64,000 bases of DNA. It comes from Bacteroidota bacterium. GTDB lineage: Bacteria > Bacteroidota > Ignavibacteria > OLB7. Shown one piece after another: positions 1-39,657 of this stretch. The notes below the pieces were generated by a model. It saw only the letters and a list, made by a program, of their open reading frames with translations. It ran no database searches and was not told the origin of the DNA. Made by a program: the position numbers and the translations under genes. The first letter of the stretch is position 1, and every line of letters begins with the position of its first letter. The stretch lies in the NCBI GenBank assembly GCA_018266795.1, contig JAFDZV010000018.1, positions 34,826 to 98,825 on the forward strand. The letters run 5' to 3'.

Positions 1-22
1 CTGACCACTGACCACTGACCAC
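1..22. repeat. Heptamer repeat (CTGACCA)x3
   Basis: Three perfect tandem copies of CTGACCA lie 7 nt beyond the stop codon of the four-helix-bundle gene. The same heptad, more or less decayed, recurs at 12131-12162, 16018-16031, 17258-17289 and 17861-17892. The copy may extend beyond the left window edge. Confidence 0.85.
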
Positions 23-28
23 GAACTG

Positions 29-394
29 CTACACCGCCTTCAGCACCGAGGCGATCTCAGTGCCGGTACTCTGCGTGAGGGGCCAGATGATATCCATGGT
101 GGCGTGCGTGAGGTAATCCAGCCTGAGGCCGAGTATCAGGAAGGTCTCCAACTGCATCAGAGCGAAGCGTGCCTCCTGCATGCGGGCGCGGCACTCCTTT
201 GCCGTGGAACGTGCGGCCCACCCCTCGGCGATGCTGGAGGGGATCATTGCGGCGGCGCGGCGTGTCTCCGCCGTGAGCGATGCGATTTCGGCGAGTGGAT
301 AATCGCGTGTGCAGCGGTACACCTCGGTTGCGAGCGTCATGGCTTCCTGCCATGCAAGCATTTCGTCGTAGGAACGGAGCGACTGAATCGTCAT
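29..394 (-). CDS. Four-helix bundle protein (S23/IVP-like)
   Basis: A complete 121-residue all-helical protein. The sequence YDEMLAWQEAMTLATEVYR, then a PSSIAEGWAA turn and an EARFALMQLETFLILGLRL helix, is the pattern of the four-helix-bundle family named after proteins encoded in 23S rRNA intervening sequences and related to Avd of diversity-generating retroelements. The biochemical function of the stand-alone members is not established. There is no rRNA or reverse transcriptase nearby. Heptamer CTGACCA repeats lie directly 3' of the gene, and a second family member (17347-17739) is also bordered by heptad repeats. This suggests that the gene travels with the repeats (inference). Confidence 0.8.
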   Translation of the reverse strand: MTIQSLRSYDEMLAWQEAMTLATEVYRCTRDYPLAEIASLTAETRRAAAMIPSSIAEGWAARSTAKECRARMQEARFALMQLETFLILGLRLDYLTHATMDIIWPLTQSTGTEIASVLKAV

Positions 395-12018: not shown

Positions 12019-12130
12019 GGGGTCGTGTGGAACGAGGTTGCGTCCCTGCCGGGTGCGCGGACGCGGGGCAAGATAGTGAGGGGAATTCTTACGTGACGTG
12101 GGTTTGGTGGCTGGGGCGTTGGGTTGGTTA

Positions 12131-12162
12131 GTTGTCAGGCGTCAGTAGTTAGTGGTCAGTTG
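12131..12162. repeat. Degenerate CTGACNA heptads
   Basis: Read on the minus strand, four successive heptads can be lined up: CTGACCA, CTAACTA, CTGACGC and CTGACAA. It lies between the phn genes and the PD40-OmpA gene. It resembles the arms flanking the S23 gene at 17.3-17.9 kb. Confidence 0.6.
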
Positions 12163-16162: not shown

Positions 16163-17257
16163 TTATGCCACCGCGTTCTCGGCTGCCTTGCGATCGTTCT
16201 CGATCAACTCTTCGATCGGGAACACCGTGCCCGGCTTCGGATAGCCCGCCGGATGCTGTCCCTCGAAGCCAACCTCCGTCATCGCCTGCACCTGGTTCCA
16301 CTCGCCCGCGCGGCGTGCCAGCACCTTCTTCACGGAATTGTAGATGTCATTGGAGGTGAGGCCGAACGCCTTCATCAGTTCGTTCGGATTTCCCGAGCCG
16401 CCGAAGGTATCGGTGACGCCAACGAACTCCATCGGCACCGGTGTGTTCTTCACAACAACCTGTGCAACCGCGGAGCCCATGCCTCCCATGATCTGATGCT
16501 CCTCCGCGGTGACGATGGCGCCGCACTCGCGCGCGGCGGCAGCGATTGCCTCCGTGTCGATCGGCTTGATCGTGTGCACGTTCACCACGCGCGCCTGGAT
16601 TCCCTCCTTGGCAAGCTCCTCGGCCGCCACAAGCGATTCCCAGACCATGCAGCCGGTTGCTATGATCGCCACATCGTTCCCTTCGCGAAACGTCTCTGCC
16701 TTTCCAAGGCGGAACGGCGTATCCTCGCGCGTGAAGGAGGGAACGGGCTCTCGGCCGAACCGGATATAGGCGGGACCTTCCATCCGGCCTATCGCGATCG
16801 TTGCCTTCTTGGCCTCCAGATAGTCGCACGGCACTACCAATGTCATGTGCGGGAGTGCGCGAAGGAAGGCCATGTCCTCCAGAACCTGATGCGTGGCGCC
16901 GTCCGGACCAACCGAGATTCCGGAGTGGCCGCCGCCGATCTTCACGTTCGCCTCGTTGTAGCAGACGGAGATGCGAAGCTGGTCCGCATTGCGAAGCGCA
17001 CAGAAGGCGCCGTAGCTGGCGAAGAAGGGAATCTTTCCGGAGAGGGCGAGTCCGGCGGCAACCGTGGTTGCATTCTGCTCCGCGATACCCATGGAGAAGA
17101 AGCGATCAGGGAAACGATCCTTGAAGAGATTCGTCATCACCGATCCGGTAATGTCACCGCCCAGCACAACGATTCGCTCATCATGCTCGCCGAGTTCGAC
17201 AAGCCCTTCACCGAATCCGAATCGAGTCGCCTTCGCGCCGTATTGTTCGTATGCCAT
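16163..17257 (-). CDS. Transketolase, C-terminal half
   Basis: 364 residues. It supplies the pyrimidine-binding and C-terminal domains of a split transketolase, the pentose-phosphate/Calvin-type C2-transfer enzyme that needs thiamine diphosphate. The catalytic glutamate is Glu60 in FFSMGIAEQNATTVAAGLA. Other blocks are GGGHSGISVGPDGATHQ, PCDYLEAKKA and AEEHQIMGGMGSAVAQV. It is longer than a typical ~310-residue C-half because of a 40-residue tail (GFEGQHPAGYPKPGTVFPIEE). The N-half is at 17900-18742 on the same strand. The S23 cassette separates the two, and its left inverted repeat begins at the base next to this start codon. Confidence 0.94.
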   Translation of the reverse strand: MAYEQYGAKATRFGFGEGLVELGEHDERIVVLGGDITGSVMTNLFKDRFPDRFFSMGIAEQNATTVAAGLALSGKIPFFASYGAFCALRNADQLRISVCYNEANVKIGGGHSGISVGPDGATHQVLEDMAFLRALPHMTLVVPCDYLEAKKATIAIGRMEGPAYIRFGREPVPSFTREDTPFRLGKAETFREGNDVAIIATGCMVWESLVAAEELAKEGIQARVVNVHTIKPIDTEAIAAAARECGAIVTAEEHQIMGGMGSAVAQVVVKNTPVPMEFVGVTDTFGGSGNPNELMKAFGLTSNDIYNSVKKVLARRAGEWNQVQAMTEVGFEGQHPAGYPKPGTVFPIEELIENDRKAAENAVA

Positions 17258-17289
17258 GTCAGTTGTCAGTTGTTCGTAGTCAGTAGGGC
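17258..17289. repeat. Left inverted-repeat arm of S23 cassette
   Basis: These 32 nt match the reverse complement of 17861-17892 at 28 of 32 positions, and the arm is itself built of heptads (CTGACTA, CGAACAA, CTGACAA). It directly abuts the ATG of the transketolase C-half. Confidence 0.85.
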
Positions 17290-17346
17290 TGTGTTGTCAT
17301 CGCATCGTACCCGCGTCTACATAGAGGATGCAGAGCCAGCCCGTAT

Positions 17347-17739
17347 CTACACTCCCGCCGAACGGGTTTGTCCGATAGACTTGATATATGCATTGAGCAT
17401 TGGTGCAAGCGCATCGAGAATGGAACGCAGGTGCTCAATCTGATTCAACGCGAGAAGATCGCGTCGAACGGCTCGCCTGAGCCAATGCTTCACTTCATTC
17501 AATGAGCCACGTGCAACGATGGCAAATCGTCTGTTGTCCGCGTACGTTGCTCGTCCAACTCCCTCGGCAATGTTTGCTCCGACGCTGTCCGAAGCTCGGA
17601 CAAGTTGGTAGCCCATGGTCGATTTCGCGAAGGATGGCCATGTGGCCACTACATCCCATATCGCATCCGCAAGTTGCTCGGCCAGGCGATACACATGCAG
17701 AGCTTCGAACTGTGATCGTGCCATCACCGGTTTCTCCAC
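17347..17739 (-). CDS. Four-helix bundle protein (S23/IVP-like), in cassette
   Basis: 130 residues, or 123 if the second ATG (17718) is used. It has the family pattern FEALHVYRLAEQLADAIWDVV, then GYQLVRASDSVGANIAEGVGR, then RGSLNEVKHWLRRAV and a C-terminal helix. It is a paralog of the 29-394 gene but not a recent copy. It lies on the transketolase strand between the two subunit genes, inside a 635-nt segment bordered by 32-nt imperfect inverted repeats. Function unknown. Its location suggests insertion into a pre-existing two-gene operon, and it may be cotranscribed with the transketolase genes. Confidence 0.85.
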   Translation of the reverse strand: MEKPVMARSQFEALHVYRLAEQLADAIWDVVATWPSFAKSTMGYQLVRASDSVGANIAEGVGRATYADNRRFAIVARGSLNEVKHWLRRAVRRDLLALNQIEHLRSILDALAPMLNAYIKSIGQTRSAGV

Positions 17740-17860
17740 CGGGGGGATAACAGATCTGATGAACTAACAACGTTGCGCGTACCACAACATATACGTGGAA
17801 ATGGGTGCGCTCAACGTTCATCCCGCAACAACGGCTTACTCATGAACCGCGCCACTCCAT

Positions 17861-17892
17861 GCCCTACTGACCACCAACCACTGACTACTGAC
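17861..17892. repeat. Right inverted-repeat arm of S23 cassette
   Basis: It begins GCCCTACTGAC and continues in 7-nt phase. It pairs with 17258-17289 with 4 mismatches and ends 7 nt short of the stop codon of the transketolase N-half. Confidence 0.85.
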
Positions 17893-17899
17893 CCACTTA

Positions 17900-18742
17900 C
17901 TACTCCGCCAACTCCTTCAATGCCTCTTCCGCCTGCTCCGGTGACGGGGGCTTGCCGTGCCACTCGTAGCGATCCTCCATGAAGGAGACGCCATGGCCCA
18001 TGTAGGTCTTTGCAATGATGCAGGTCGGCTTGCCGGTCACGGTCTTGAACTCGTCGAACGCGGCAAGCAGTGCGCCGTGATTGTGCCCGTCCACCATGAT
18101 CACGTGGAAGTTGAAGGACTCGAACTTCTCCTTCAGCGGATAGATGTTCATCACGTCGGTAACGCGGCCGTCGATCTGGCAATCGTTGTTGTCCACGATC
18201 ATGCAGAAGTTGTCCAGCTTGTAGTGGGCTGCCGCCATCACGGCCTCCCAGATCGATCCTTCCTCCAACTCGCCGTCGCCGGTGAGGGAGTAGACGCGTG
18301 CGCCATTGTGGTCCAGCAGTTTGTCGCTGAGTGCCATCCCGACGGCGATGGAGAGTCCCTGCCCCAGCGAGCCCGTGCTGGACTCGATGCCCGGCAGCAT
18401 CATGTCGCGACCGGGATGGCCCTGCAGCCGGCTGCCGAACTTGCGGAGCGTAAGCAGCTCAGACTTTGGGAAGAATCCGGCATTGGCCAGTGTGGCGTAG
18501 AGCACCGGACACATGTGGCCGGCGGAGAGGATGAACCGGTCGCGCCCCGGCATGTGCGGATGTGCGGGATCGTGGTTCATCACGCCTCCCATGTAGAGCA
18601 CGGCGAAGATATCCGCCGAACCGAGCGGTCCTCCGGAATGGCCGGACTTCGCTTCAACGAGGGATCGGATGATATCGCGGCGTATTTCCGTTGCGATCTC
18701 GGCGAGCTGTTCAGGCGTTCGGCGTTCGTTGGTAAACGGCAT
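17900..18742 (-). CDS. Transketolase, N-terminal half
   Basis: 280 residues. This is the diphosphate-binding half of the split transketolase. The thiamine-diphosphate motif GDGELEEGSIWEAVMAAAHY starts at 155 and ends with VDNN (183-186). SGHSGGPLGSADIFAVLY (33-50), RDRFILSAGHMCPVLYA and GSLGQGLSIAVGMA match the family. ATG 18742 gives the standard size. It is the first gene of the minus-strand group N-half, S23, C-half. The divergent TPR gene starts 333 nt away, and the gap (18743-19075) shows no gene or recognisable regulatory motif. Confidence 0.95.
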   Translation of the reverse strand: MPFTNERRTPEQLAEIATEIRRDIIRSLVEAKSGHSGGPLGSADIFAVLYMGGVMNHDPAHPHMPGRDRFILSAGHMCPVLYATLANAGFFPKSELLTLRKFGSRLQGHPGRDMMLPGIESSTGSLGQGLSIAVGMALSDKLLDHNGARVYSLTGDGELEEGSIWEAVMAAAHYKLDNFCMIVDNNDCQIDGRVTDVMNIYPLKEKFESFNFHVIMVDGHNHGALLAAFDEFKTVTGKPTCIIAKTYMGHGVSFMEDRYEWHGKPPSPEQAEEALKELAE

Positions 18743-19075
18743 GGGATCGGCTGCGTTAACGTTAGACTGAAGTCCGGCTAAACTACGAAACGGGCGCCGA
18801 TTGAGAGGTAACGAAAGACAGCCCCGGAGCCGCCGGCAGTGACGGGTGTTCGCGGCCGGCCGGCCGGTTTCCCGCACGGTTACGCCCATTCCGGCCGCAG
18901 AACGGGTACTGTTACCAATCGTCAACGCCCGGGGCCATGTTGTGCAAGGCGCGGCTTTTACGTAGGTTCCTACCCTTTCCATGTATCAAAAGTCCCCAAC
19001 CTGGGTAGATTGACTCGTGGCGTCCCTGCGCCACTGATCACACCGAAATCGATACATATCGGAGCAGTCCCGACA

Positions 19076-38788: not shown

Positions 38789-38810
38789 TGAACGGGGGTA
38801 TGCGGGCCGT

Positions 38811-38836
38811 GTAGGCGCACGTCTTCAGCGTGCGCC
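38811..38836 (+). repeat. REP element, left of transposase
   Basis: GTAG plus a perfect 8-bp hairpin, GGCGCACG/CGTGCGCC, whose first G is the G of GTAG. This is the classical REP layout (tetranucleotide followed by a stem-loop). It is the exact 26-nt reverse complement of 39509-39534. Confidence 0.85.
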
Positions 38837-38855
38837 CAATTCACGCGCAGCACCA

Positions 38856-39329
38856 TCACATCGAATTGAGATCGTATTTCGTAGATCCCTTGAATCGAAA
38901 GTCCTTTGAAGAAGCCACAATCCCGGCCTTGACGGGATTGTTTAGGATATATCGGAAATGATTCTGCCGCTCCCACTGCGTTCGAACAATGCGATCATAA
39001 AAATCCTTCTGCCAACGAGTGCCGGGCAGATTGCCTGCCAGCCAATAATTGCTCCGTTGCTTGAAGCGCTTCATTGCCGATAACACGTCCCCATCTTCGT
39101 TGACCGATGATAGAAGTGCGTGGAGATGGTCCGGCATGAACAGATAGATATCCAGATCGGACCGGTATTGTTCCGCAGCTTCGCGGAGAATCGATTCCAT
39201 CGCGTTCACAACCCAGGAGTCGACGAAGATCCTGACGCGGTTATGAACGCACGCAGTGAAGGCAACAACACGCAGGCCGGTATAGTGGGCGGCGGGTAAT
39301 CGGTGATGACGCTCTCGGATCGGTTTCAT
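38856..39329 (-). CDS. REP-associated tyrosine transposase (RAYT)
   Basis: 157 residues from ATG 39329, chosen because GGAGG lies 7 nt upstream. It is a Y1_Tnp/IS200-like HUH nuclease domesticated with REP hairpins. The HxH metal motif is MPDHLHALL (His68, His70). The catalytic tyrosine is probably Tyr95 in QRSNYWLAGN. YTGLRVVAFTACVHNRVRIF opens the domain, and RYILNNPVKAGIV is the conserved end. Exact inverted REP copies lie 19 nt beyond its stop and about 180 nt upstream. The gene is complete and may be active. It sits between A2M genes 1 and 2. Confidence 0.9.
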   Translation of the reverse strand: MKPIRERHHRLPAAHYTGLRVVAFTACVHNRVRIFVDSWVVNAMESILREAAEQYRSDLDIYLFMPDHLHALLSSVNEDGDVLSAMKRFKQRSNYWLAGNLPGTRWQKDFYDRIVRTQWERQNHFRYILNNPVKAGIVASSKDFRFKGSTKYDLNSM

Positions 39330-39508
39330 AGCAGCCTCCATGCCGATACGGAATGCGATCGGCAAACAGGAGGAGCGTTCGATCTGCCTAAACGTATGAC
39401 AGGCGGTTGTGACCTGCAAACGGGGGGATGCGGGTGGGTGGTGTTTGCGGGGCGTTTGGTGAATCGGGTGGTGGGGGATTGCGCGTTGTAATGGCGGACG
39501 CTGAAGAT

Positions 39509-39534
39509 GGCGCACGCTGAAGACGTGCGCCTAC
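39509..39534 (-). repeat. REP element, right of transposase
   Basis: On the minus strand it reads GTAGGCGCACG...CGTGCGCC, identical over 26 nt to the left REP but inverted. Partial copies (GGACGCTGAAGATGG at 39496-39510, GGCGCCTACGGGGTG downstream) show further REP material in 39480-39600. Confidence 0.85.
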
Positions 39535-39657
39535 AAGGCATGGCGCCTACGGGGTGCGTGCCTGCGGGGTGTGTGCCTGCGGGGTGTGCCGGTATACGAC
39601 AACCCCCCGCCGCAATGCAAACCGTATGCGACGGGGGAAATGATGTGGGGACCGTGC

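Follow-up and report, generated by a model that had tools for sequence, protein, structure and literature searches.

S23-family genes within inverted short-repeat arrays at operon junctions: a unit between two transketolase genes and its counterparts in other genomes

The S23 gene between the transketolase genes

The analyzed window is a 64-kb stretch of a bacterial genome (G000). On its minus strand, the gene for the N-subunit of transketolase (tkt; 17900-18982, annotated start uncertain) is followed by a gene of the S23 family (17347-17739) and then by the gene for the tkt C-subunit (16163-17257), all in the same direction. The S23 gene lies between two inverted arms of 32 nt each, which are 28/32 (88%) complementary and enclose a 571-nt core with no ORF other than S23. 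The arm 5' of the gene (17861-17892, plus strand) is made of GTCAGTN heptads when read on the minus strand, and the arm 3' of it (17258-17289, minus strand) of CTGACNA heptads on that same strand, which is the sense of the operon. The tkt C-gene begins directly after the 3' arm, with its start codon abutting the repeat, and the stop codon of the tkt N-gene lies 7 nt from the other arm. The imperfect inverted repeats described in the original prediction stood out in a scan for pairs of 32-mers across the whole window: only one further pair reached at least 27/32 at a spacing of 300-1000 nt, and none did in the mirror-repeat control. The predicted pairing of the two arms is strong (a 96-nt construct joining arm to arm gives -53 kcal/mol). 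The other pair bounds a RAYT-like gene (38.8-39.5 kb). This Y1 transposase ORF (38856-39515, minus strand) sits within its own 38-nt imperfect inverted ends (38806-39539), which is the classical REP-type arrangement.

The S23/IVP family has had orphan status for some thirty years, and most of what is known of it comes from rRNA IVSs. The gene between the arms, proposed to be a complete S23-like gene, matches PF05635 (E-value 2.4e-26, 92.5 bits, cut-off 33.8) and TIGR02436 (5e-26, 91 bits, cut-off 24), and its product is a member of the S23/23S_rRNA_IVP family by both profile and four-helix-bundle fold. An AlphaFold model of 105 residues has a mean pLDDT of 96, and its best structural matches are the S23 structures 2gsc (TM 0.93) and 2rld, followed by the Avd structures 4dwl and 8ube (TM about 0.8). 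As a further, weak likeness to Avd, the profile NF033474 matched one S23 protein of this family (E-value 1.8e-5, far under the cut-off). No transposase family profile matched the protein of the window, and no recognized catalytic domain was found in S23. A role as a defence system was rejected, as PADLOC returned no match. The S23 protein of Xanthomonas has been reported as a pentamer (PMC4990558).

Where the original prediction had spoken of transketolase halves, nothing is interrupted: the flanking genes encode the N- and C-subunits of a two-gene enzyme, with neighboring N and C ORFs in all 17 of the closest relatives examined, which rules out a split gene. Comparison of the tkt site among relatives, as originally proposed, revealed both empty and filled sites. 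In the only other genome of the genus that was searched (G001), the tkt proteins are 82-88% identical to those of G000 and the site has no S23, leaving a gap of about 85-100 nt. S23 is also absent from the site in a genome of the same family (G002) and in 13 further relatives. Both genomes of a sister genus (G003 and G004) carry an S23 gene that is 63-64% identical, in the same place and direction and with heptad arms. Alignment with the start in this sister genus indicates that the window gene probably starts at the ATG at 17724, giving a protein of 125 aa. The unit at the tkt site is thus present or absent as a whole, and this behavior at a homologous site supports the view that the segment is a unit without its own transposase. 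The history of the site may have been an old presence followed by loss, or independent arrivals at one preferred site. A target-site duplication is not readable here or at the acd site described below; arm length drifts and the spacers of the empty sites differ.

G000 contains two more S23 genes. The second (about 29-394, minus strand) was thought to be bordered by heptads as well. This is true only of its 3' side, next to an assembly gap, where a CTGACCA array lies at 1-22 (plus strand). On the contig upstream of window positions 1-394, a run of N is followed by an array in the opposite orientation, and the region around this gene is possibly a collapsed repeat in the assembly. The third S23 gene (C2:199268) has no heptads.

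Repeat arms of S23 genes in many phyla

S23 genes of other genomes were also flanked by repeat arms, and the reading of the window locus therefore survives this comparison. Matched inverted arms were present at 58% of 139 S23 genes from many phyla and at 4.2% of 165 other ORFs from the same loci (odds ratio 31, P-value 1e-26, Fisher test), with the arm calls depending on score cut-offs and the loci, taken from draft genomes, being related by descent. The motif SIPSNIAEG, with ranking by similarity to one alignment, served to collect the survey loci, of which 48 of 73 had matched arms by the score cut-off. Such loci belong to Bacteroidota, Pseudomonadota, Cyanobacteriota, Planctomycetota, Verrucomicrobiota, Chloroflexota, Acidobacteriota, Bacillota and candidate phyla, as well as one archaeon. 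Across 103 loci (29 of the same class as the window and 74 from the many-phyla survey), self-similarity at a lag of 7 was 0.62-0.64 in S23 flanks versus 0.42-0.44 in control flanks 900 nt away, which were flat. The S23 flanks were raised at lags 7 and 14 and slightly at lag 8, and flat at the remaining lags.

The arms match their own partners. When left arms were compared with the reverse complement of right arms, the mean score was 15.7 for the arm of the same locus and 7.9 for those of other loci, and the own right arm ranked first of 99 in 40 loci and among the top five in 64. The sequence of the repeat unit varies among loci, even inside one genome: one genome (G179) has 19 S23 matches, and its clearly armed loci each have their own repeat unit. 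Some loci, for example one Mesorhizobium site, have units of 8 nt. CTGACNA is therefore no general signature of S23 arms, as had been assumed, and it was rejected as a universal arm since only four such arrays occur in 30 loci of the class, where other heptamers appear as well. What S23 arms have in common is not sequence but period (7, sometimes 8), inverted order and placement from stop to start codon.

In 20-kb stretches scanned independently of S23, every repeat-built inverted pair with a gene-sized core (368-676 nt) contained S23, and no gene-sized pair of this kind was found in 694 kb that had not been picked for an S23 locus. Not every S23 locus is armed: about 40% lack clear arms, among them two of the three loci in G000, where arms are absent or one-sided. 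Spread through plasmids was rejected on the basis of one match in 72,556 plasmid records, obtained with a single-sequence query.

Armed S23 genes occupy the short space between operon genes. The genes on both flanks lie on the same strand in 70 of 94 loci. The left arm starts a median of 2 nt from the upstream stop codon, which falls within the arm itself in 39 of 89 loci, and in 52 of 86 the right arm and the downstream start codon are at most 20 nt apart. Judging from translated flanks read by eye, what we take to be the nuoC/nuoD junction holds S23 units in several Ignavibacteria-type genomes and in Methylobacterium, and presumably the accB/accC junction holds one in Rhodanobacter. The nuoC/nuoD units (L069, L074, L082, L093 and L179) come from different phyla and have different repeat units; their recurrence reflects either a preferred site or repeated arrival. 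At one locus (L251) the right arm overruns the downstream start codon, and the conserved S23 motif is short by two residues.

Scattered arrays and the history of S23 sites

Heptads of the kind found in the arms are not confined to S23 genes. Within the window, CTGACNACTGAC has nine matches with at most one mismatch, against 0.98 expected. In pattern searches and sampled contigs, GTCAGTN/CTGACNA arrays were spread throughout G000, and a CTGACNA 19-mer had 466 matches at up to two mismatches in the genome compared with two for the reversed pattern; both counts put these heptads far above chance. In the G000 arrays period 7 alone is raised. On a 294-kb contig, neighboring arrays are mostly inverted pairs in the fixed order GTCAG then CTGAC, separated by 9-155 nt; no such pairs appeared when the sequence was reversed as a control. 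Short hairpins without a gene are thus scattered in the genome with the same ends as the S23 unit, which has the same form and differs in its 571-nt core. An isolated degenerate array without S23 (12127-12159, minus strand) is a dispersed member of the same repeat; it has no inverted partner and adjoins a stretch of CTCATAT-like heptads. A second heptad family, GTTCTTN/NAAGAAC, occurs on contig 10 of G000 (for example C10:75108, 101963, 278500-278678 and 284475; L095-L108), and no cognate S23 for it was found in this genome.

The three genomes with an armed S23 at the tkt site are also those with many CTGACNA array matches (219 in G000, 378 in G003 and 497 in G004). No such match occurs in G001 or G002, the family members that lack this S23. 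Among 61 relatives CTGACNA is abundant only in these three genomes, followed by one with 19 matches (G037), whose S23 arms are of the TAGTCAG type. In 54 of 83 cases (5% expected), scattered arrays were closer to the S23 arms of their own genome than to an equal number of foreign ones, a resemblance to which common base composition may add. The S23 element is linked to scattered, S23-less hairpins of its cognate repeat. If the ancestor of the family had the element, G001 and G002 lost both the gene and all arrays, which would imply that arrays decay fast without S23; alternatively, the element may have entered more than once.

The best-sampled site is the acd junction of Mesorhizobium. Among 30 relatives (91-100% identity) it is filled in ten and empty in 19, with a 51-57-nt read-out, and in one (L249) an array without S23 occupies the same spot, made of TAGTGAG and CTGACTA heptamers that differ from the repeats of the S23 unit. 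The filled and empty states require at least eight changes on the tree of the flanks. Divergence of S23 at this site tracks that of the flanks (r 0.83 with the upstream flank) and the S23 tree splits alike, which fits an insertion of old date, lost or replaced repeatedly since then, rather than a fresh jump. Its S23 gene is under strong purifying selection (dN/dS 0.067). Recent transposition within Mesorhizobium was rejected, with the 83-99% S23 copies at one site and the fetched 62-74% group at another, and no copy at a new site was found among the Mesorhizobium copies compared. The suggestion that the window segment is a small mobile unit without a transposase thus holds for presence and absence at the same site, but not for the S23 tree at the acd site, which follows the flanks.

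The arms evolve in concert at another Mesorhizobium site, where the units are 8-mers: the unit variants of the two arms covary across 16 homologues (r 0.70, permutation P-value 0.0017). Mesorhizobium genomes with S23 have a median of 23 array matches and those without it a median of three (P-value 2e-8; 0.02 after subtracting 12), a link that comes partly from the element's own arms and from shared ancestry. One genome (G388) has 23 array matches and no detected S23, which counts against the link between S23 and the arrays.

Known systems and possible explanations

23S rRNA IVSs with an S23 ORF are known from Leptospira and Coxiella. Like the window unit, they have an S23 ORF in transcript sense, inverted-repeat ends and no transposase. 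Unlike them, the window unit sits between the protein genes of an operon rather than inside 23S rRNA, both of its arms are tandem arrays, and its repeat recurs across the genome as hairpins that lack S23. In the Coxiella IVS, tandem GACAGAT heptamers in varying copy number precede the S23 ORF, the ends are inverted and the IVS is excised by RNase III (PMC4990558). The 23S rRNA IVSs look like rRNA-dwelling members of the S23 element family.

The S23 element resembles REPIN/RAYT systems in having one gene with matching inverted ends and many short gene-free hairpins per genome, but it encodes S23 and no Y1 transposase, and its ends are tandem arrays of 7-mers (or 8-mers). It differs from insertion sequences and MITEs in that the window unit has neither its own nor a related transposase. 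S23 shares its fold with the Avd protein of DGRs, whereas the S23 loci examined have no reverse transcriptase and no template or variable repeat. Heptamer repeat arrays are unexplained in many genomes. The TAACTGA heptamers of Beggiatoaceae, cyanobacteria and Bacteroidetes are, like S23 arms, tandem and intergenic near start codons, often ending 1 nt before them, but the description is of direct repeats, with a single inverted case, and the searched text of that paper has no mention of S23 (PMC4679880). In the open-access literature (subscription journals and preprints being outside the search) no paper joins S23 genes to inverted heptad arrays beyond rRNA, and the element family is apparently undescribed.

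On balance, we lean towards the view that the window segment is a copy of a widespread small element in which S23 acts on the inverted arrays to match and spread them, following a logic similar to that of RAYTs and REPINs. The element consists of an S23 gene within two inverted short-tandem-repeat arrays, in the direction of the operon and between the stop and start codons of its genes. A ring of S23, pentameric and related to Avd, may bind the repeat arms, in the form of DNA or of transcript hairpins, and may work together with replication or repair enzymes of the host to keep the arms alike and let repeat hairpins arise at new gene junctions. Copies with S23 would then be self-sufficient and the short hairpins would depend on them, the same division as between RAYTs and REPINs. 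By folding the transcript, the arms would also allow RNase III to cut out the inserted stretch; such trimming is likely by analogy with S23-bearing 23S rRNA IVSs. Both the mobility of the element and the action of S23 on arrays are what we infer from these comparisons. Against this reading stand the S23 tree that follows the acd flanks, with no copy caught at a new site, the lack of a recognized catalytic domain in S23, the roughly 40% of S23 loci without clear arms, and the partial nature of the link to dispersed arrays in Mesorhizobium.

Joining S23 proteins to heptamer arrays provides the family with a function that can be tested, namely action on the arms, and suggests what may make the repeats; rRNA IVSs become special cases of a common element that lives in operons. 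It would also add a possible route of DNA spreading without a recognized transposase or recombinase. We advance more tentatively, and with more doubt than belief, the broader idea of a new class of mobile elements in which a ring of the S23/Avd fold, non-enzymatic in appearance, directs the creation, matching and spread of arrays at gene junctions of bacteria and archaea, rRNA IVSs and heptamer repeats being its two faces.

A different explanation, which we regard as rather unlikely yet worth serious weight, is that of a passive, IVS-like parasite: folding and cutting of the transcript would make insertion into operons harmless, ordinary replication slippage and template switching between inverted repeats would create the arms and keep them alike, and S23 would have its own role, for host or element, that has nothing to do with making the arrays. 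The same-strand placement inside operons, the strong predicted pairing of the window arms and the excision of the Coxiella IVS by RNase III (PMC4990558) all agree with it, and concerted arms require no special enzyme, as template switching between inverted repeats could match them. However, arm mismatches in the sense RNA comprise 130 G-U and 132 A-C cases. This lack of a G-U excess gives no support to selection on an RNA stem, and the symmetry suggests that the arms are kept alike as DNA. Slippage also leaves unexplained why hairpins of the cognate heptad are confined to genomes with the S23 element and why a period of 7 (sometimes 8) is strongly preferred across unrelated phyla.

It is improbable that some other enzyme, for instance a Y1 (RAYT/IS200-type) transposase, moves the arrays, with S23 as cargo or bystander. 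Although G000 has RAYT-like genes, including the window gene with inverted ends described above, and the REPIN logic is similar, the presence of Y1 transposases does not track the heptad arrays: G003 has no Y1 match despite its 378 CTGACNA matches, and G001 and G002 have three to four each and no CTGACNA, with the reservation that draft assemblies could hide a gene. Y1 was rejected as the mobilizer on these grounds, and the gene-sized inverted pairs contained S23 and not other genes. That S23 genes just tolerate or attract simple repeats, both occupying short intergenic gaps in a purely compositional association, is very improbable: the arms are simple in composition, with only 8.5% C on the left-arm strand, and heptamer repeats are known without S23 (PMC4679880), but only 4% of other ORFs at the same loci are armed, each arm resembles its partner rather than the arms of other loci, and the raised signal is limited to lag 7 and, to some extent, lag 8.

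Two further candidates for the origin of the repeats were rejected. DGR-like adenine mutagenesis found no support, as departures from the repeat columns are not specific to adenine (A 0.225, C 0.297, G 0.197, T 0.206), a further difference from DGRs. Stop codons in all frames are a weak explanation of period 7 (0.30 versus 0.22, sd 0.04).
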